The notes: generated by a model not told the origin, from the sequence alone. 64,000 nt of DNA from an uncultured Poribacteria bacterium (GCA_951828385.1 OX639973.1:4827200-4891199); one strand, 5' to 3'. Positions 7,105-16,956 are shown, counted from the first letter of the stretch. Program-made: numbers and translations.

Positions 7105-8175
7105 ATGAATCAACACGAACAAGAACGAATTGTGAATGCAACAGCGTTGCAAAGTGTCTGTAGTGCGCTTTACCAGAAAGTCGGCGTTGCGCAATCAGAT
7201 GCGGATACCGTCTCGGAAATGCAAGTACTGATGGATTTGCGTGGCGTTCATTCACACGCGACACGCGGCATGCCGGGTTATGTCCGGGGCATCATCGGTG
7301 GGAACATTAATCCGAATCCACAACTCCAGACGCTTGCGGATAATCCTGCCTCTGTGCTATTGGATGGCGACCGCGGATTGGGACATCTCGTCGGTGTTCG
7401 GGCAATGAACATCGCTATTGAAAAAGCGAAGTCCGCCTCTATCGGTGTGGCGATTGTTCGGAACAGCAATCACTTCGGGGCTGCCTCCAGCCATGCGATG
7501 CGCGCACTTCCGCACGATATGATCGGTTTCGCAACGACCAACGGACTCGGTGTGAATACTGCCGTTTTTGGTGCGAGAACTGCTTCGATCGGAAATAATG
7601 CGTTTTCCTTTGCGATCCCTGCTGGCGAAGAGCCACCGATTGTGTTGGACATGGCGTGCGGTGCTGCCGCCGCTGGACGGATTGGGACTGCAAGGTTATA
7701 CCAAGAGAAAATCCCGTTGGGATGGGCACTTGACGCGGACGGTAACGAAACCGATGATCCAGGGAAAGTCGCCGTTATCCTACCCGCTGCAGGTCCGAAA
7801 GGTTCCGCGCTCGCGATTGTGATGGATGTCTTGTGCGGTCCGTTGAGCGGTGGGTTGATGGGCATCAACAAACACTTTCAACCCGGGGACGCGCCACCAG
7901 AGAAGCGCGTATCGGCACACTTTTTCCTCGCGATTAACATTGCCAGTTTCACCGCTGTTGCAGAATTCAAAGCCGAAATTGACCGACAGATTCGGATGAC
8001 ACGTCAAGCGACCCCACGCGCCGGTTTTACGCGCGTCACCCTACCCGGTGAGATTGAGTCGGAATTGACGCAAGAACGCATCGCAAACGGGATTCCGCTG
8101 CACAACGAACCGTTGCAAACGATCGAGCAACTCGCCGACGAGTTAGAGGTTGAAATCCCATGGAGCCGACAGTGA
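7105..8175 (+). CDS. Malate/L-lactate dehydrogenase family oxidoreductase (Ldh_2)
   Basis: This 356-residue protein matches the NAD(P)-dependent Ldh_2 family (malate/L-lactate/ureidoglycolate/sulfolactate dehydrogenases) over its whole usual length. Typical segments are 'DLRGVHSHATRGMPGYV' near residue 45, 'SNHFGAASSHAMRAL' (catalytic His region) near 120, and the glycine-rich 'GPKGSALAIVMDVLCGPLSGG' region near 235. It should reduce or oxidise a 2-keto/2-hydroxy acid in the cytoplasm; the exact substrate cannot be read from sequence. GGGGG lies 9 nt before the ATG. It stands alone, with its own promoter and a separate promoter for the next gene. Confidence 0.85.
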   Translation: MNQHEQERIVNATALQSVCSALYQKVGVAQSDADTVSEMQVLMDLRGVHSHATRGMPGYVRGIIGGNINPNPQLQTLADNPASVLLDGDRGLGHLVGVRAMNIAIEKAKSASIGVAIVRNSNHFGAASSHAMRALPHDMIGFATTNGLGVNTAVFGARTASIGNNAFSFAIPAGEEPPIVLDMACGAAAAGRIGTARLYQEKIPLGWALDADGNETDDPGKVAVILPAAGPKGSALAIVMDVLCGPLSGGLMGINKHFQPGDAPPEKRVSAHFFLAINIASFTAVAEFKAEIDRQIRMTRQATPRAGFTRVTLPGEIESELTQERIANGIPLHNEPLQTIEQLADELEVEIPWSRQ

Positions 8176-8184
8176 ATTTTCTGC

Positions 8185-8214
8185 TTGCAATCGCGCCTTA
8201 TATCCGTGTATAAT
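8185..8214 (+). promoter_or_regulatory. Promoter of the restriction-modification gene
   Basis: TTGCAA (8185-8190) and TATAAT (8209-8214) are spaced by 18 bp, 46 bp before the start at 8261. The hexamers and spacing are identical to the promoter of the BrnT-like gene at 11846-11875. Confidence 0.65.
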
Positions 8215-8260
8215 TGGCGTTGTCTCAAATCCGATTGCCAATGCTACACGGGGAAACGCC

Positions 8261-11200
8261 ATGCCGACACTTAATATCAAACCGACACATAAACCCATCA
8301 AAAACTATTATGCAGAACTTGAAGCATACACGAAAATCGGCGCGGAACACGAAGGCGCAGTCCGAACCGCATTCCAAACGCTCCTCCAACACTATTGCCG
8401 ACAAGGGGGCCTCATCCTTGTCTGTGAAAAGACACGCTACACAAAAGCGAACAGGCGCATCCAGTTAGATGGCGAAATCGTTGATGCTTTCGACTTACCC
8501 CATGGACACTGGGAAGCAAAAGATACACAGGACGATCTGCCGACCGAAGCGCGGCGAAAATCGGAAGCAGGGTATCCGTTTAAAAATATCATCATTCAAT
8601 CCCCAACACGCGCACTCCTCTATCAGAACGAGCACCTCCGCCTTGACCGCGACCTGACGGATCCAAAGAATCTTATCGAGCTACTGAACACCTTCTTCGC
8701 GTATCAAGAGGAAAACATCGTCGATTGGTATGCTGCAGTGGAGGAATTTCGGGAGAAGGTGCCGGTGCTGGGCCGCGGTGTCGCACAGCGCGTTGAGACC
8801 GAGATGCAGGACAACCCGTTGTTTCAGCAAGCCTTTACGAATTTTCATCAGCAGTGCCGAGCCGCTATTGACCCAAACCTCACCGAGGCACAAGTTGAAG
8901 AGATGCTCATCCAACACCTCCTCACCGAACGGATTTTCCGCACCGTTTTTGACAATCCCGATTTTACCAACAGAAACATCATCGCCCAAGAAATTGAGAA
9001 GGTGATCCGTGTCCTTACGCAGCGTTCCCCAAGCCGCTCCGAGTTCCTGCGTCCCCTAAATCCGTTCTACATTGCGATTGAGAAAACCGCCGCGACTATC
9101 ACCGATTTCTCACAAAAACAGTCGTTTTTGAACACCGTCTACGAGCAGTTTTTTCAAGGTTTTTCGGTGAAGGTTGCCGACACGCACGGCATCGTTTACA
9201 CGCCACAACCCATCGTGGATTTCATGGTGAAAAGCGTTAAACACGTGCTTAAAGCCGAGTTCGGACGGTCGCTTTCGGATATGGGGGTTCACATCATCGA
9301 TCCGTTTGTTGGCACCGGTAACTTCATTGTCCGCCTCATGCAAGAGATTCAGGGGCGGCGACTGCCACAAAAATACCGAGAGGAACTACACTGCAACGAG
9401 GTGATGCTCCTTCCGTATTACATCGCCAGTCTCAACATTGAACACGCCTATTTTGAGCGAACCGGCAGCTATGAACCCTTCCCGCATATCTGCTTCGTGG
9501 ATACGTTTGATACAGTGGATTTAATGGACGCGCCGCATCAAACAGGACAGTTTTCCTTTTTTACACCGGAGAATACGCTTCGGGTTGAGGAACAGAGAGA
9601 GATGCCAATGTTCGTCGTTATCGGCAATCCCCCGTACAATGCAAGACAGACTAACGAAAACGATAACAACAAGAATCGACCGCATGCAGGCGTTGATGAG
9701 CGGGTGCGGAACACGTTTGCCGCTGATTCTAATGCACAGTCGAAAAATAAACTCTATGACCCGTACGTCAAGGCGTTCCGGTGGGCAATGGACAAGCTTG
9801 GCGATGAGGGGATCGTCGCCTTCGTGACGAACAACAGTTTTATTGACGCGCAAATGTTTGATGGCATGCGAAATCACCTCTCCGAGGAGTTTGACACGCT
9901 CTATATTCTGGATTTAGGTGGCAACGTCCGCAAGGGACAGCCAGGAGATGCGAATGTGTTCGGCATTCAGGTTGGCGTGAGCATCAATATCTTCGTCAAA
10001 AGTAGTAGGCACAGTCCCTGTGCTGTAACTGCTGAAGGTGTTTCGCGTATGCTTTACAATGACGAAACTGCCGAACTAAATAAAGCACGTACCTTCGCGT
10101 TCCTTGACGAAAATCAGCATATTGGTAATATAGAATGGCAGGAGCTAACTCCTGATAAACGGCATACATGGCTCACAGCGGATCTCCACACCGATTTTGA
10201 CACTTTCATTCCGATGGGGAGTAAGGAAGCAAAGGCAGGTCAGGGTAAAACTGAAGGAACGCTTTTTAAAACCTACAGTCTTGGTGTGTCAACGAACCGA
10301 GATGCTTGGGTTTACAACTTCAATACAGCCTCTCTCACTGAAAACATTCAGCGGATGATAAAATTCTACAATGCTCAGACGCTTGAGTGGGTAGGTACAA
10401 AAAACAACACGGGAGTGAATCTCGATGATTTCGTGGATTCGGATCCGCAGAAAATTAGTTGGAGTGAAGGCTTAAAACGTAAACTGAAAGCCAGACAACT
10501 CGCAGAATTTGCTGAATCAAAACTACGTCAATCTCTCTACCGACCATTCACAAAAACAAACCTATTTTTTGATAGGCTCATGAATGAGCGCGTTTATGTA
10601 TTTCCCTCCATTTTTCCTACGCTTGAAACGGAGAGCGAAAATCGGATTCTCTGTGTCAACATGACTCCGGAGAGACCCTTTGCTTGCTTGATGAGTGATT
10701 GCATTCCTGTAAATGTTATGGCTGGTGGCTTTGGATCGCCGACACAGTGCTTTCCGTTCTACACCTATGATGAGGATGGCACCAACCGCCGTGAAAACAT
10801 CACCGATTGGGCGTTGACGCAGTTTCAAAAACACTACGCAGATGACACTATCACCAAATGGGACATCTTCCATTATACCTACGGATTACTGCACCATCCC
10901 GATTATCGCGAGCGGTATCAAGAAAACCTCAAACGAGACTTACCGCATATCCCCTTTGCGGGAGATTTTTGGGCGTTTGCAAAGGCAGGCGCGCGGTTGG
11001 CAAACCTCCACATCACCTACGAATCCCAACCCGAATACAATAAACTTGAGCCGATTGAGACACCGGGCATGCAAGTCAATCTGCGTGTGGAACGAATGAA
11101 ATTCTCCAAAGACAAAACGCAATTGAAATACAATGATTTTCTGATGTTAGAGGGCATCCCGCCTGAAGTATTTGCATATCGGTTAGGGAACCGGTCTGCG

Positions 11201-11374
11201 CTGGAGTGGGTTGTGGATCAGTATCGTGTAAAGGTAGACAAACGGAGCGGCATCAAGAACGATCCGAATCGACTTGAGAATCCAGAGTATATCCTTCGTT
11301 TAATTGGACAGGTCATCACAGTCAGTTTAGAGACGGTGGATATTGGTAAAGGCTTGCCCGCTTTAAAATCGTAG
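8261..11374 (+). CDS. Type IIG/ISP-like restriction-modification enzyme
   Basis: The 1037-residue protein joins three parts. Residues about 60-110 contain a PD-(D/E)XK nuclease core (D75/D78, then E85-A-K87 in 'HWEAKD'). Residues about 305-600 form an N6-adenine methyltransferase with motif I 'DPFVGTGNF' (about 347) and NPPY (456-459). The C-terminus, with 'SLYRPFTKTNLFFDRLMNER', matches the Type ISP C-terminal/target-recognition region. No helicase domain lies between nuclease and methyltransferase, so the layout is closer to Type IIG than to true Type ISP. It should cut foreign DNA and methylate host DNA at one site. I chose ATG 8261 over a frame 37 codons longer because the promoter lies between them. 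Residues about 582-591 are encoded by a palindromic repeat (see repeat at 10004). Confidence 0.85.
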   Translation: MPTLNIKPTHKPIKNYYAELEAYTKIGAEHEGAVRTAFQTLLQHYCRQGGLILVCEKTRYTKANRRIQLDGEIVDAFDLPHGHWEAKDTQDDLPTEARRKSEAGYPFKNIIIQSPTRALLYQNEHLRLDRDLTDPKNLIELLNTFFAYQEENIVDWYAAVEEFREKVPVLGRGVAQRVETEMQDNPLFQQAFTNFHQQCRAAIDPNLTEAQVEEMLIQHLLTERIFRTVFDNPDFTNRNIIAQEIEKVIRVLTQRSPSRSEFLRPLNPFYIAIEKTAATITDFSQKQSFLNTVYEQFFQGFSVKVADTHGIVYTPQPIVDFMVKSVKHVLKAEFGRSLSDMGVHIIDPFVGTGNFIVRLMQEIQGRRLPQKYREELHCNEVMLLPYYIASLNIEHAYFERTGSYEPFPHICFVDTFDTVDLMDAPHQTGQFSFFTPENTLRVEEQREMPMFVVIGNPPYNARQTNENDNNKNRPHAGVDERVRNTFAADSNAQSKNKLYDPYVKAFRWAMDKLGDEGIVAFVTNNSFIDAQMFDGMRNHLSEEFDTLYILDLGGNVRKGQPGDANVFGIQVGVSINIFVKSSRHSPCAVTAEGVSRMLYNDETAELNKARTFAFLDENQHIGNIEWQELTPDKRHTWLTADLHTDFDTFIPMGSKEAKAGQGKTEGTLFKTYSLGVSTNRDAWVYNFNTASLTENIQRMIKFYNAQTLEWVGTKNNTGVNLDDFVDSDPQKISWSEGLKRKLKARQLAEFAESKLRQSLYRPFTKTNLFFDRLMNERVYVFPSIFPTLETESENRILCVNMTPERPFACLMSDCIPVNVMAGGFGSPTQCFPFYTYDEDGTNRRENITDWALTQFQKHYADDTITKWDIFHYTYGLLHHPDYRERYQENLKRDLPHIPFAGDFWAFAKAGARLANLHITYESQPEYNKLEPIETPGMQVNLRVERMKFSKDKTQLKYNDFLMLEGIPPEVFAYRLGNRSALEWVVDQYRVKVDKRSGIKNDPNRLENPEYILRLIGQVITVSLETVDIGKGLPALKS
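10004..10032. repeat. Family E-like palindrome inside the restriction gene
   Basis: 'gtaggcacagtccctgtgc' holds the perfect stem GCACAG/CTGTGC (10009-10023). The start 'gtaggcacag' matches, on the opposite strand, the unit between hisG and hisS (39118-39179). It is translated in frame as 'SRHSPCAVTAEG' within the methyltransferase. Confidence 0.6.
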
Positions 11375-11467
11375 GAGAATCCGTGCCTTGTGCCGTGAAT
11401 ATCATTGTACGGGCTAACCCGACAAAACCATTTAGTTCTCCGTTTTTAGTCCAATTTTGAACCCCCC

Positions 11468-11502
11468 AGGCCCGGTAGGTTCGGTTTCCTAACCGAACCG
11501 GA
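11468..11502. repeat. Family A palindromic repeat
   Basis: 35-base unit with 'cccggtaggttcggtttcc' followed by 'taaccgaaccgga', one base different from the copies at 5056 and 5151. Confidence 0.85.
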
Positions 11503-11845
11503 TTCTACGCGGAAACCTTGAAGATTCATAACGCTCTTAGTCCCGTAGAGACGTTATGTTTATAGAAATGGATATGAAAGAAGGATTCCAACCCTGTAAG
11601 GGTGGCATGTTTATATCATCTATGCTAAACGCCACCAAAAAATCGCTAAATTGACACCTATAGTGCGGTTTTTGCGGCGTACTTGCCCAGATGCGAAGTG
11701 CATCGCGGTGTACTCACCTGCCCCCCTGAGAAGGGGATAAAGGGGGCTTGCGATCGGCATTCCTAACCGCACCAGATCCTGGAAAAAGGACGAGAAACTC
11801 TATAATTTCTTAAAACTGAATGACTCTGCTAATCTCGACAAAATG

Positions 11846-11875
11846 TTGCAAAAACCATGTACAATGTGATATAAT
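11846..11875 (+). promoter_or_regulatory. Promoter of the BrnT-like/STAND operon
   Basis: TTGCAA (11846-11851) and TATAAT (11870-11875) with an 18-bp spacer lie about 125 bp before the TTG start at 12003. Same hexamers and spacing as the restriction gene promoter. Confidence 0.6.
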
Positions 11876-12002
11876 GTTGAAAGGAAAGTCAACCGGAAAA
11901 GTGTGTGGCACTCGCCTGACTTTGCACTTTAACTTCTGAAAACGTATCTTTACAAGCACCAGGCTATTCGCCGGAACGCCAACACGAAACCGGAGCGGGA
12001 AT

Positions 12003-12290
12003 TTGCAAATTGATGAGATTATATGGCAACAACAATTTGTTGAGAAATTAGCGATAAAGCATGGTGTAGAAAAAACGGAAGTTGAAGAAGTCTTAAGTAA
12101 TCGTCCTCGTTTTCGTTTCGTTTCTAAAGGCAATCGGGCAGGTGAAGATGTTTACTTGGCTATGGGACAAACAGACGCAGGACGTTATCTCATCGTTTTT
12201 TTCATTCAAAAACCAAATCGCCGGGCGTTGGTTATCAGCGCAAGAGACATGACGAGAACGGAGCGAAGGAATTATGGCAGACAAAAATAA
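12003..12290 (+). CDS. BrnT-like (DUF497) toxin
   Basis: This 95-residue basic protein resembles BrnT-family RNase toxins: 'EIIWQQQFVEKLAIKHGVEK' at the N-terminus, a central 'EEVLSNRP' helix, 'GEDVYLAMGQTDAGRYLIV' strands and the terminal 'ALVISARDMTRTERRNYG', which is the conserved end of the family. It is expected to be a small ribonuclease-like toxin held by a cognate antitoxin. No separate antitoxin follows; instead its last 17 bases overlap the start of the large STAND gene, whose first 50 residues look like that antitoxin. The start is TTG at 12003 with GGAGCGGGA just upstream; no ATG or GTG is available in frame. Confidence 0.75.
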   Translation: MQIDEIIWQQQFVEKLAIKHGVEKTEVEEVLSNRPRFRFVSKGNRAGEDVYLAMGQTDAGRYLIVFFIQKPNRRALVISARDMTRTERRNYGRQK

Positions 12291-15200
12291 AAAACGAGAT
12301 CCAATGCCACCTCCGGATGCAACACCAGAAGAGATCGGCGAGTTTTGGGATACCCATAGCCTCGCTGATTATTGGGATGAAACCCATGAAGTGGAATTTC
12401 AGGTTAATCTCAAATCACGTCAAAATCTGTCGCCAGACGAAACAGTTGAACAGAGAGACGCACTTTCGGCAGAACGGGGTTGGCAAAAACTAAAAAAACT
12501 TATCCAAAAAATGGACTATAGAGACTTTGAAAAACTCGCTGCTGCGTTGCTAACATCATTTTTCAAAGTCCGCTTTGTTGTTGCGAGATCTGGCGACCAA
12601 CCAAGCGGTGATGCTAGGAGTCTGACAGGTGAGGTGGCAATTCAAGCCAAGAACTACAGTAACAGAACAGATCCTAGAGACGTAGAAATTGTAGGAGATA
12701 TTGATATAGTAAACGAAAATTTACAGGATCTCCAAGTTTATGTCTTAGTTATTTCTCGTGATATTCCGGCACAATTGTTTGATAAATTGGAAAAGAAGAA
12801 AAAAAATACTGGCTTGGACATTGTTGCCCTTGAACTTTCTGATGAGTTATCAGATTTGGGGGCATTGTGTGTTACCTACTGGGAGGATATCTGCCATTTC
12901 TTTGACCTGTCAGACACTAATCCAGAATTTTCAGATTGGGTTCAAATAGCAAAGAATGAGTCACAGACCCGCGAGAAAATGAAGGATGTCCGAAAGAAGT
13001 TGGAAGAAGGAATCCAAACTCAAAAACAAATTCAAAAAGACGTTGAGAAATATCTACTTAAGCGTTTTAATAGTCCTGAAGGTTTCAATCCAATTAACTT
13101 GTCCCAAGCGATAGACCGGGAAAAAGAATCACAGATCTCAGATTGGTGGGGAACCGAGGGGGCACCTATTTGCTGCCTTGAAGGGGAAGAGGGCCACGGA
13201 AAATCATGGCTTGCTGCCAAGTGGATAAATTCAATTCGTGAAAAAGAAAATATTGTCACTTTTTGGTTAGATAGTAGAGACTGGAGCGGTGCTAGGTCTA
13301 TATTTAATTTGCTTTACACTTGTTTTGATGTAATCTATCCATCTTATGAGGAAAGAAAGATCAGCAAACTTCAGAACAAGCCCGCAAAAATCTGGCGTAA
13401 AACGCTCATTATCCTTGATGGGGTCAATGAAAGGAATGCAATTGAGGCAGCACAGCGAATTCTTGCTGAATACTTTAGGAACGACGAAAGCGAGTGGAGA
13501 GATAGAATCCGTTTTCTGCTGACCACGCGTCCTTTGGATGACTACCCGGATTTGTGGAGCGGGTGCCATAAAATTTCTGTTGACCCTTTTGATGACTCTG
13601 AACTCCAGGCGGCCCTAAACCGACAAGGACTCCAACTTGATAATTTGCCAGATTCATTAAAAGAAGAAGTTGCAAGAATTCCTCGGTATTTTCAGAGGTG
13701 CATTGAACTACGAGATGAACTTGGTTCATTTGCGGTTGTCACCAAGGAAATGGTTTTATGGGCGGATCTGCTTTACAAAATCAAATATAGTGGCGACCGA
13801 CAAATTCGGAAAAAACTTGATTGGCAGAGCATTGAAGATGCTCAGGATGACCTTGCAATGCTCGCTCGAGAAGCGAAGTGGACCGATGCGCCACATGCTT
13901 CTGTAGAACTGCTTAGAGATTGTTTTCCTAATTACCGTAAAATCCGTCGAGATCTTAAAGAACAACGGATTGCCCTTAAGGCACATAAGAGACAAGCCAA
14001 GTTGAATACAGATCATATTGTACTCGGTTGGGCTCTTTACCTTGCTAATCTGTTTGATTGTACAGAATTTACCGGAATTAAAGATTTCGCCGAGGGTTTT
14101 CAGAACGCGCTTGAGCCGATCCCTTCAGAAGATCTGAGAACTGAAGCACTATTTGTCGCACTACAAATCACTGTGATGTCCCCCGATCCTGACATTTCAC
14201 AAGACCAACTTTCACAAAAACGAGCTGCCTTAATGCTAGCGTGGTTTGATAGTCACAATGCACAGATTACCAATAAGCGCATTTCTTTTTGGGTACAGAC
14301 AGATATCGATGCCTATGCACAATTTGTCAAAGTTCAGTTGGAAACTCACAATCAATCGAGTTATGAAGAAGCACTCATTACGCCTCTCGCCAAAGCCTGG
14401 TTGCACGAAACAGGTCAGATTGATCAATTAAGATTGCGTCTTACTAAATGGTTTCTCGCTCCATTAACCGATGATGGATCAGAAGATATTGTCTATGTTG
14501 GTCATAAAGGGAATCAATTTCCTCGGGAAAAGGGTGATATACAGGCTCAATTATCACGCGCCGCTATCTCAATTTTATCCCAAAGGCCAGAGCATCAATT
14601 TCTAAAAACACTTGCAAATTGCTACGCAGGTTTACAGAACGGAAAAAAGTCTGACGAAAGCAATCATAGATTTTTCTATTTTAGTGAGCATCTCGGCAGA
14701 CTGATGCGATGGGGATATACTGAAGCAGTTTTGGAAGATTTGCGTTTGTTAGCAGAACAAGCCCAAGGCGATGAATTTTTGTTGAACGGGATTTATGGGT
14801 TAGCTGCTAATCTTCAAGTAGTGGATTTACCCCCTCTCTTGCAACGACCTCTCTCAAAAGAAGATAGAGAGCTGTACGCCCGCGCAGCGGAATTCCGTCG
14901 TAACTTTAAATCCGCTTTTGATCGTGTCTCTAATCAAGAACAATTACTAAAAGGCGAATCACCGGAAGCGAATGTAAAAGGTAATTTCCACGGACTTGAC
15001 TATTTAGCAGTTCGTACAGACTTGCCTGATTTGCGTAATGAAGATAAGGTTGAAATCAAAAAGGTTTTGCACCATATCTCAGTAAATGCTGAATTGGCAC
15101 AAGGGCGTTCTGCATCACTGGAAGGTTTTTGTATAGAAAACTTAATGCCGTGGGTTGCCAAATACTCTCCCGAGGATTACGCCGAACTTGCCTGCAATCT

Positions 15201-16956
15201 TAAACTTAACGCCCTGAATCAAAAATGGGCGCATATCGGCCTTCTGTCAATTCAAGGGCTTATTTTTGAACCGGAAGATCGGATAAAAATTACGGAAGCA
15301 ATTTTGGAGATGAAACAACGTCTCGTTCAAGACGTTCAGGCGGATAATTCATCTTCGGAGACTATTTATTTAACCTCCGTACTGACAGAAACTCTTCTTT
15401 TTTCTGCTTCTGAAGAGAGGTTAACCGATTGGTTTAAATTCCTTGCTGCACATGAGCCACTTAGAGTTGCAATTTGCTATGATACACTCCCGTGTTTGTT
15501 GAGGGAATTATTACCTGAAACAATTGTGGAATTGGCACAACAGAAGTTGGAAACACTTTGGTCTTCGTCATCTGATGATCAAATTGCGGACGATAGTGAA
15601 GCGAAAGAATTCTCGGAGGAAGAGTTCTGGTGTACGCTTTACGCCTATGGTGCCCCAGCTGATAAAAACGCAGTAAATTATGCATTAGAAGCATTGAAAA
15701 TCAGAGATCCCGATTCGACTGGAACATATCCAATGCTCTGGTTAGCCTTATCTGGTCCAAATCAGTTTTTGGCTGAAACGTTAACTGATAAAGAAATACG
15801 GAGGCACCTTTTTTCTCGAAATGGTAAACGGTTCAGAATACCCATTTACGAAGGTGAAAATGTCCCTTCTTATGATGTGTTAATGTCGTTGTTGCCTCCA
15901 AGAATTGTGGGTTATTTTCTCTGCTCACCGGATCGGTGTAGCGATCTTTCTCAGTGGGGCAAAGAAATTATCGAGTGGATATTTTCAAATCTTCAAGGTA
16001 TTCAGGTAGACTTCGATTATGATTCGGCAATAAGGTTTTCGGTTAATCCAAAAATTCTTCGGACTTGGGCAGAACAGAATACGACAGATTTCTTACAATT
16101 AGCGGATGAATATCTCGCCGAACTTTCCAAGTTCCCTCAGTACAGCCAAGCATTGTCGGACTTCACGGATGCCGTTCTCTGTTTGTTATTGCGTTTCCAG
16201 CCTACTGTCGCAATGCAATATTATCGTCAATCGAAGACTGAAGGTTTCAGAATAGTGTGTTCAACGCACTACGGCTTAGAAACATCCATTGCTCAACTCT
16301 GGCAGGTTGCGGAGTGTGGATTAACTGAACATCGCGACCTCAGACGCAAACTGTTGGAGGAGTGTCTAAATGACGAAGATATTATGTTTATGACACTGGC
16401 TGCTTTAGTTGGCGGAGGCGAGGAAGAGTTGTGGAACTTGGTGACACAAGAGTACTTAGCAAGTCCGTACGCAAAAGAACGGAATCTGGGTGTTTCTATT
16501 TTACCGTGGTTTGGAAACGACAAAGCAATTGAGAAACTTAAGGAATTGAAATCGGATGATCCAAGCCAGTGGGTTCGAGGACACGCTTGGTGGGCGTACG
16601 AGGTTGCGCAGCAGGAACGCAGTTGCCGAGAGGTCTACCGAGAAGCCTTGCAAACGCGCGACCTATTCCGAATCTCTGCCGTTTTCGAGCAAATAAAACC
16701 TGCCCTTTCACCGACTGCTCGATGGTGGCATCGTGAAATTGAAAAAGAAGAAGGATTCCATGAGGAATCACTATACATCGATCCCAGGCTTGATGCTCTC
16801 CATTACCGATTTTGGTATCGGTGGGGTAATTCTTCAAAGACAAAGAGTAACATTGAAGTTTTCGGGAGAAAGTTGCGGGAGTATTGCCGAGGCGAAAAAC
16901 TGTCAGCAGGTTCGCCTCCTCGAATCGCCCCTTGGTGGAAACCTACCTCCGATTGA
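12274..16956 (+). CDS. Antitoxin-like / PD-(D/E)XK nuclease / STAND NTPase fusion (Avs-like)
   Basis: The 1560-residue protein has four visible parts. Residues about 12-52 ('EEIGEFWDTHSLADYWDETH') match the N-terminus of CopG/BrnA-type antitoxins that normally follow BrnT toxins. Residues about 75-210 resemble an Mrr-like nuclease: 'FEKLAAALL', then G107-D108, and E120...Q124-A-K126. Residues about 285-480 form a STAND/NACHT-like NTPase with Walker A G304-EEGHG-K310-S311, Walker B 'TLIILDG' (D382) and 'FLLTTRP' (R419). The remaining thousand residues are helical, with HEAT-like segments near the C-terminus, suited to target recognition. This order (nuclease, NTPase, long sensor) is that of Avs antiphage STAND proteins. 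The antitoxin head and the overlap with a toxin gene are unusual. A terminator follows at 17113. Role in defence is inferred. Confidence 0.75.
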   Translation: MADKNKKRDPMPPPDATPEEIGEFWDTHSLADYWDETHEVEFQVNLKSRQNLSPDETVEQRDALSAERGWQKLKKLIQKMDYRDFEKLAAALLTSFFKVRFVVARSGDQPSGDARSLTGEVAIQAKNYSNRTDPRDVEIVGDIDIVNENLQDLQVYVLVISRDIPAQLFDKLEKKKKNTGLDIVALELSDELSDLGALCVTYWEDICHFFDLSDTNPEFSDWVQIAKNESQTREKMKDVRKKLEEGIQTQKQIQKDVEKYLLKRFNSPEGFNPINLSQAIDREKESQISDWWGTEGAPICCLEGEEGHGKSWLAAKWINSIREKENIVTFWLDSRDWSGARSIFNLLYTCFDVIYPSYEERKISKLQNKPAKIWRKTLIILDGVNERNAIEAAQRILAEYFRNDESEWRDRIRFLLTTRPLDDYPDLWSGCHKISVDPFDDSELQAALNRQGLQLDNLPDSLKEEVARIPRYFQRCIELRDELGSFAVVTKEMVLWADLLYKIKYSGDRQIRKKLDWQSIEDAQDDLAMLAREAKWTDAPHASVELLRDCFPNYRKIRRDLKEQRIALKAHKRQAKLNTDHIVLGWALYLANLFDCTEFTGIKDFAEGFQNALEPIPSEDLRTEALFVALQITVMSPDPDISQDQLSQKRAALMLAWFDSHNAQITNKRISFWVQTDIDAYAQFVKVQLETHNQSSYEEALITPLAKAWLHETGQIDQLRLRLTKWFLAPLTDDGSEDIVYVGHKGNQFPREKGDIQAQLSRAAISILSQRPEHQFLKTLANCYAGLQNGKKSDESNHRFFYFSEHLGRLMRWGYTEAVLEDLRLLAEQAQGDEFLLNGIYGLAANLQVVDLPPLLQRPLSKEDRELYARAAEFRRNFKSAFDRVSNQEQLLKGESPEANVKGNFHGLDYLAVRTDLPDLRNEDKVEIKKVLHHISVNAELAQGRSASLEGFCIENLMPWVAKYSPEDYAELACNLKLNALNQKWAHIGLLSIQGLIFEPEDRIKITEAILEMKQRLVQDVQADNSSSETIYLTSVLTETLLFSASEERLTDWFKFLAAHEPLRVAICYDTLPCLLRELLPETIVELAQQKLETLWSSSSDDQIADDSEAKEFSEEEFWCTLYAYGAPADKNAVNYALEALKIRDPDSTGTYPMLWLALSGPNQFLAETLTDKEIRRHLFSRNGKRFRIPIYEGENVPSYDVLMSLLPPRIVGYFLCSPDRCSDLSQWGKEIIEWIFSNLQGIQVDFDYDSAIRFSVNPKILRTWAEQNTTDFLQLADEYLAELSKFPQYSQALSDFTDAVLCLLLRFQPTVAMQYYRQSKTEGFRIVCSTHYGLETSIAQLWQVAECGLTEHRDLRRKLLEECLNDEDIMFMTLAALVGGGEEELWNLVTQEYLASPYAKERNLGVSILPWFGNDKAIEKLKELKSDDPSQWVRGHAWWAYEVAQQERSCREVYREALQTRDLFRISAVFEQIKPALSPTARWWHREIEKEEGFHEESLYIDPRLDALHYRFWYRWGNSSKTKSNIEVFGRKLREYCRGEKLSAGSPPRIAPWWKPTSD

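Follow-up and report, generated by a model that had tools for sequence, protein, structure and literature searches.

Avs4 and Avs3 (AVAST) combine an N-terminal nuclease, a STAND NTPase and a long helical C-terminus in a single protein; recognition of phage terminase or portal, with oligomerisation, is a mark of the family. In type II modules of the BrnT/BrnA and BrnT/CopG kinds (PF04365 with PF12441), the toxin gene comes first and overlaps or adjoins the gene of its antitoxin. BrnT fusions in a survey of RelE/ParE toxins were BrnT-BrnA mono-genes with RHH or HTH domains only (PMC11980606). In the Brucella toxin D6, E7, K9, R41 and E78 are catalytic, and a D-E-x-K motif has been reported for activity (PMC5086665). 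The AriA ring, the ATPase of PARIS, is an antitoxin that sequesters the nuclease toxin AriB and releases it on the phage trigger Ocr (PMC11455837), and the anticodon nuclease PrrC is kept silent by the type I restriction-modification (RM) enzyme EcoprrI (PMC2610378).

The locus described here lies in a window of 64,000 nucleotides, part of the single-contig 6.66-Mb genome of a member of Candidatus Poribacteria, which are sponge symbionts. It consists of a BrnT-family toxin gene and an overlapping gene for a 1560-residue STAND protein that begins with half an antitoxin. The large protein has the nuclease, NTPase and helical C-terminus of Avs4 and Avs3, but its solenoid looks HEAT/karyopherin-like, and it has an antitoxin head and an upstream toxin gene, both of which are lacking in its headless relatives. 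With the BrnT modules the locus shares its toxin-first layout and a clearly homologous toxin and antitoxin N-terminal half, whereas a sensor of 1500 aa replaces the RHH DNA-binding half. The proposed likeness to PARIS, that of an ATPase protein that would sequester a toxin and release it on a phage trigger, is one of analogy: the proteins are unrelated, the PARIS ATPase itself binds the toxin, whereas here the binding would fall to a borrowed piece of an antitoxin, and the sensor here has its own nuclease. Silencing of an RNase by a defence enzyme, as in PrrC-EcoprrI, would find its closest parallel in a fusion of the same head to HsdS, although the head::HsdS loci are without an intact adjoining toxin; we know of no antitoxin domain in PrrC. 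The parts are of known kinds, and no precedent was found for their combination, an antitoxin half on a STAND sensor behind its toxin: a literature search that fell short of subscription papers and most preprints returned no paper on an antitoxin half on STAND or HsdS proteins. Probably the toxin is restrained by the sensor itself, which would double as its antitoxin.

Organisation of the locus

The coordinates, the overlap of 17 bases between the toxin ORF and the large ORF, and the domain order given in a preliminary description were all borne out by ORF reading and domain profiles (Table 1). The toxin ORF starts with TTG and stops with TAA, and both its GGAG and its TTG are kept in aligned relatives. 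The likely promoter comes from a pattern scan that found two matches in the region against 1.4 expected, which is weak if taken alone; its -35/-10 region is conserved in all ten aligned headed loci (those whose STAND protein carries the antitoxin head). No covariation was found for a leader RNA structure. A palindrome-like intergenic stretch (GGTTCGGTTTCCTAACCGAACC, window positions 11460-11520) lies 5' of the operon and resembles a dispersed repeat.

Table 1. Features of the toxin-STAND locus, in positions of the window
Feature	Position	Strand	Evidence or remark
Type ISP restriction-modification enzyme (context, outside the pair)	8150..11374	+	Pfam Type_ISP_C, E=3e-104
Likely promoter of the toxin-STAND operon	11846..11875	+	TTGCAA-18 nt-TATAAT with extended TG; pattern scan
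Toxin ribosome-binding site, GGAG	11992..11995	+	7 nt 5' of the TTG start
BrnT-family toxin gene, 95 aa	12003..12290	+	Pfam BrnT_toxin, E=1e-11; dN/dS 0.18
STAND gene ribosome-binding site, AAGGA	12266..12270	+	within the toxin 3' end; ATG start follows
Antitoxin head :: nuclease :: NACHT/STAND :: helical solenoid gene, 1560 aa	12274..16956	+	single open frame
N-terminal (toxin-binding) half of CopG-type antitoxin, residues 1-52	12274..12429	+	PF12441; RHH tail absent
Variable linker, residues 53-68	12430..12477	+	dN/dS 0.38
Mrr-like PD-(D/E)XK nuclease, residues 69-225	12478..12948	+	E86, D113, Q124-x-K126
NACHT/STAND NTPase, residues 281-520	13114..13833	+	NACHT 27.0 bits (cut-off 26.7)
All-helical solenoid (HEAT/karyopherin-like), presumed sensor, residues 521-1560	13834..16953	+	AlphaFold model

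The pair had been said to adjoin a restriction-modification gene. A Type ISP enzyme does lie upstream of it in the window and in seven other headed loci, but is absent from three and is therefore not required; in two headed loci the pair comes directly after a dehydrogenase gene, and in one it has another location. Within the defence island that surrounds the pair, the RM enzyme occupies a shared position. At two loci (L171:1178-3532 and L172:7103-9511) a second large gene of 784-802 aa separates the BrnT-STAND pair from the ISP RM enzyme, and the L171 product has a NACHT domain (Pfam E=4e-14).

The toxin and the antitoxin head

The toxin matches BrnT_toxin (PF04365) at 45.4 bits against a curated cut-off of 34.5 and retains nearly every position conserved across 43 relatives from Poribacteria, Chloroflexota and other groups. 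The toxin has an Arg in GRYL and a Glu in TERR, which may correspond to catalytic residues of the Brucella protein. The D-E-x-K motif is not evident in its subfamily (the window sequence there is WQQQF), and RNase activity is therefore assumed. The dS of the toxin (0.34) is lower than that of the STAND body (0.8-1.0); gene conversion or an extra constraint at the DNA level may be the cause.

Residues ~12-52 of the large protein had been described as antitoxin-like. The CopG_antitoxin profile (PF12441) matches the window protein weakly, at residues 18-50 (17.5 bits against a cut-off of 28), and the match stops at profile position 42 of 79. A stand-alone poribacterial protein, directly behind BrnT, has a head 68% identical to that of the window together with the RHH tail, and this relative scores 38.4 bits, above the cut-off. 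In a head-profile scan of GTDB contigs, matches outside Poribacteria were confined to antitoxin-sized proteins (frames of 45-142 aa), most of them with BrnT directly in front. Since the stand-alone relative passes PF12441 and non-poribacterial heads mostly stand behind BrnT, the assignment of the head by sequence to the N-terminal half of an antitoxin of CopG type is sound; of the earlier label, CopG/BrnA-type, the CopG part (PF12441) is more precise than BrnA (PF14384). No PDB relative of the head was found. The large protein is without the C-terminal ribbon-helix-helix half, its residues 53-68 being a variable linker, and is therefore not a full PF12441 member.

By the sequences searched, fusion of the head to large proteins is seen only in Poribacteria. 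No fusion was present among 88 whole-genome matches in 27 non-poribacterial genomes, where the longest open frame was 168 aa, and 400 Chloroflexota genomes searched for STAND relatives gave antitoxin-head matches only. STAND relatives on viral contigs amounted to one weak 33% NTPase match, and on plasmids to one distant Azospirillum protein that aligned from residue 99 on, that is, without the head.

The Avs-like body

The replacement of the DNA-binding tail by an Mrr-like nuclease, a NACHT/STAND NTPase and about 1000 residues of helical repeats was upheld by profiles and models. Pfam Mrr_cat matches the nuclease region weakly (E=0.22) and pLDDT in the domain model is mostly 61-88; E86, D113 and Q124-x-K126 are invariant in 14 homologues. 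The same 14 retain the Walker motifs A (GEEGHGKS) and B (LDGVNE), and NACHT was found in every one. The AlphaFold model of the solenoid (~1000 aa) is all-helical (pLDDT 69.7), with karyopherins/CAND1 as its best Foldseek matches (E~3e-4) and weak HEAT_2 matches in 3 of the 14 homologues.

For a model of residues 1-560 the best Foldseek match was Avs4 (8dgf, E=1.5e-7, probability 1.00), followed by Avs3 (8dgc); the model has a mean pLDDT of 62.8 and superposes poorly overall, so that the match is one of fold family and not of atomic detail. The protein also has the Avs-family layout, an N-terminal effector, a STAND NTPase and a C-terminal solenoid within ~1500-2000 aa. No family in PADLOC-DB 2.0.0, a library that may or may not include Avs models, matched at E<=1, and the protein is therefore termed Avs-like rather than Avs. 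Its Avs4-like fold, its family and its intact active sites make it likely that the STAND protein is an antiphage sensor with a nuclease of its own.

Coupling of head and toxin in Poribacteria

The survey of genome neighbourhoods suggested earlier found the gene pair at full length in ten genomes, including the window. Across 98 genomes searched for homologues, the ten full-length headed STAND proteins are 61-100% identical, with frames of ~1520-1590 aa; there are two further, truncated headed copies (G001 and G034), and the pair recurs in 11 poribacterial genomes besides the window's, degraded in two of them. An assembly artefact is ruled out by the presence of the same architecture in ten genomes, three of them single-contig chromosomes.

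The toxin stands directly upstream of all ten full-length headed STAND genes (nine intact, one frameshifted), usually with the overlap seen in the window. It is absent from all four full-length headless homologues and from a broken fifth. Homologues without the toxin and the N-terminal segment had been named in advance as evidence against a coupled system; they do exist, but the two parts are missing together, which supports the coupling. Seen from the toxin, the association is also tight: in 85 poribacterial genomes, all 28 full-length toxins of the window kind (E<1e-24) lie no more than 45 bases from a head, on the same strand and directly before it. Heads without a toxin are common in Poribacteria, and this asymmetry is the one expected of a toxin-antitoxin pair.

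Degraded copies were also compared. In G001 toxin and head are intact and the STAND body stops at residue 259; in G009 the head::STAND gene is intact and the toxin frameshifted; and in G034 and G007 toxin and body are both broken. By locus, toxin and head are intact before a broken body at L016, and at L083 and L107 the toxin is frameshifted or nearly gone where the remainder decays. None of these copies combines an intact toxin with loss of the head.

Headless STAND proteins start with a Met 1-3 residues from 'WQKLK', the motif that follows head and linker in the headed proteins, and no ATG is present at this junction in any of the ten headed loci. The head was therefore grafted before a complete STAND gene and is made only as a fusion. 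Production of a separate head protein by internal restart is ruled out for STAND by the same missing ATG.

Selection and phylogeny

Median dN/dS values were taken segment by segment across the ten headed loci. The head has the lowest value (0.083, against ~0.25 for the body) and is the most constrained segment of the protein; the linker stood at 0.38, the nuclease at 0.36, the NTPase at 0.24, the solenoid at 0.19-0.27 and the toxin at 0.18. The fusion has been retained across ten genomes at a dS of ~0.6-1.

A tree of STAND bodies has a branch (support 68/84) with the headed proteins all on the same side, and these may have a single origin. When the tree is built from toxin and head, the STAND cassettes group together (97/90); their clade belongs to a larger one of fused cassettes (84/97), itself nested among free poribacterial pairs. 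Between different partners the heads show a dS of ~1 with the protein conserved, so that recent copying of a mobile DNA cassette from gene to gene is rejected as the main explanation.

Other proteins that carry the head

The preliminary description had proposed a candidate new antiphage system. The STAND pair is real, but in-frame fusions of this head were found on other proteins as well: to HsdS (10 loci, in most of them directly behind hsdM), to DUF2806 (6 loci, L025, L026, L033, L036, L038 and L048, several of which belong to type I RM operons and lie between hsdM and hsdS), to ArgC of arginine biosynthesis (L020, L022 and L043) and to an FGE-sulfatase-domain protein (one locus). Its presence on several partners points to antitoxin grafting that has recurred, and not to a single purpose-built system. 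Short free heads also exist, some of which overlap hsdS.

BrnT is often retained before the DUF2806 and ArgC fusions (directly upstream of head::ArgC it is intact in L020 and frameshifted in L022) but not before the HsdS fusions. In 7 of the 10 genomes with head::HsdS no intact cassette-type toxin was found, gaps in the MAGs being possible, and the head is conserved nonetheless. By partner, the dN/dS of the head is 0.03 on STAND, 0.09 on HsdS, 0.09 on ArgC and 0.15 on DUF2806 with toxin. As the head on HsdS is conserved without an adjoining toxin, conservation alone is no proof of BrnT binding; the HsdS-borne head may neutralise incoming BrnT or serve another use. Native internal starts are retained in the HsdS and ArgC fusions, from which a separate head protein could possibly be made by internal restart.

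Several further arrangements were observed around these fusions. The FGE-sulfatase-domain fusion (L115:3974-5020) occupies the slot held by BrnT-head::DUF2806 in L102. In the window's own genome (L031:1669-3643; C1:~415.7-417.6 kb) an HsdS has the CopG head at its N-terminus and DUF433 at its C-terminus, and a DUF5615 PIN-like gene (Pfam) overlaps it downstream; by gene context, L032:3634-5458 has the same head-HsdS-DUF433 and DUF5615 arrangement. DUF433 and DUF5615 presumably act as an antitoxin/toxin pair, and antitoxin grafting on this own-genome HsdS may have happened twice. A HigBA-like pair (Gp49 and HTH_37), a UPF0175 gene, or both, lie between hsdM and head::hsdS in L023, L024 and L041. 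Part of a second head copy lies upstream of BrnT (L026, L033) or of head::HsdS (L024, 1060-1122), as if a cassette had been inserted beside an older copy.

Proposed mechanism and alternatives

The central proposal of the preliminary description, that an Avs-like STAND protein carries an antitoxin head, is sustained by the domain profiles, the co-occurrence of head and toxin, the selection on the head, the obligate fusion and the Foldseek match to Avs4. In the mechanism that we favour, the two genes of the operon would encode BrnT, a small ribonuclease toxin, and a STAND immune sensor that resembles Avs4. At rest the STAND protein would be the sole local antitoxin, its head binding and silencing BrnT. 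A phage protein would then cause the sensor to oligomerise, or the phage would inhibit or destroy it; the unrestrained toxin would cut RNA, the sensor's own DNA nuclease would act too, and the infected cell would be stopped. The reading that the STAND sensor silences BrnT, and that its triggering, inhibition or loss frees the toxin, is given a probability of roughly 0.47.

The steps of this reading differ in strength. The coupling of head and toxin and the selection on the head make it likely that the head neutralises BrnT without the RHH tail. Release of the toxin on phage sensing, which the preliminary description put forward as the trigger for nuclease and toxin alike, or on sensor loss is plausible by analogy with PARIS and PrrC/EcoprrI. 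Counting against the guard reading, the partners in the ArgC and FGE-sulfatase-domain fusions are not defence-related. In a wider form of the proposal, doubtful as it stands, the toxin-binding half of the antitoxin would in Poribacteria be a transferable 'holder' module grafted on STAND, HsdS and DUF2806 proteins, any of which, as a guard triggered, inhibited or lost, would free the RNase toxin.

If the head binds BrnT, the STAND protein is the local antitoxin; if only these two steps are true, the arrangement amounts to a lock that keeps a defence gene in place by addiction. This is the main rival, with a chance that we place appreciably below even: the graft would make the STAND gene indispensable and so stabilise a costly defence gene, a long-lived toxin would harm any cell that lost it, and the toxin would be irrelevant to phage sensing. 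Addiction accounts for the toxin-first overlapping order, for the occurrence of heads on unrelated proteins, ArgC and HsdS among them, and for the tolerated loss of the toxin in G009. ArgC, however, scarcely needs stabilising, and the lock would be leaky, given the lost or broken toxins of G034 and G007 and the broken body of G001.

Fusion might also have been opportunistic, a toxin-antitoxin module having repeatedly lost its RHH tail and run into a downstream gene, so that the fusion has no special function and the head continues to neutralise its own or incoming toxins. Five different partners, several of them degenerate, would be explained in this way, as would the BrnT remnants upstream of a head::HsdS and a head-DUF2806 fusion (L032, the HsdS fusion, and L108), the internal native starts still present in the HsdS and ArgC fusions and the many toxin-less heads. 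We consider it improbable: no fusion appears in the 27 non-poribacterial genomes with their 88 head matches, the partner is a defence gene in most loci, and the STAND fusion has been retained in ten genomes, where its head is very constrained and internal restart is lacking. Still far less probable is another function of the head, such as docking the STAND or HsdS protein to a different partner with the neighbouring toxin incidental, which would suit the conserved head on HsdS in genomes where no cassette-type toxin was found but not the exact tracking of toxin by head on STAND or the 28 of 28 toxins that adjoin a head.

Significance

If the reading in which the STAND sensor silences BrnT is true, there would be a simple way for a selfish toxin-antitoxin pair to evolve into a dual-effector immune receptor, namely by exchange of the DNA-binding half of the antitoxin for a pathogen sensor. 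The family supplies natural controls in its headed and headless homologues, its HsdS grafts and its degraded copies, and it makes testable the idea that toxin-antitoxin modules are built into other defence systems or stand guard over them.
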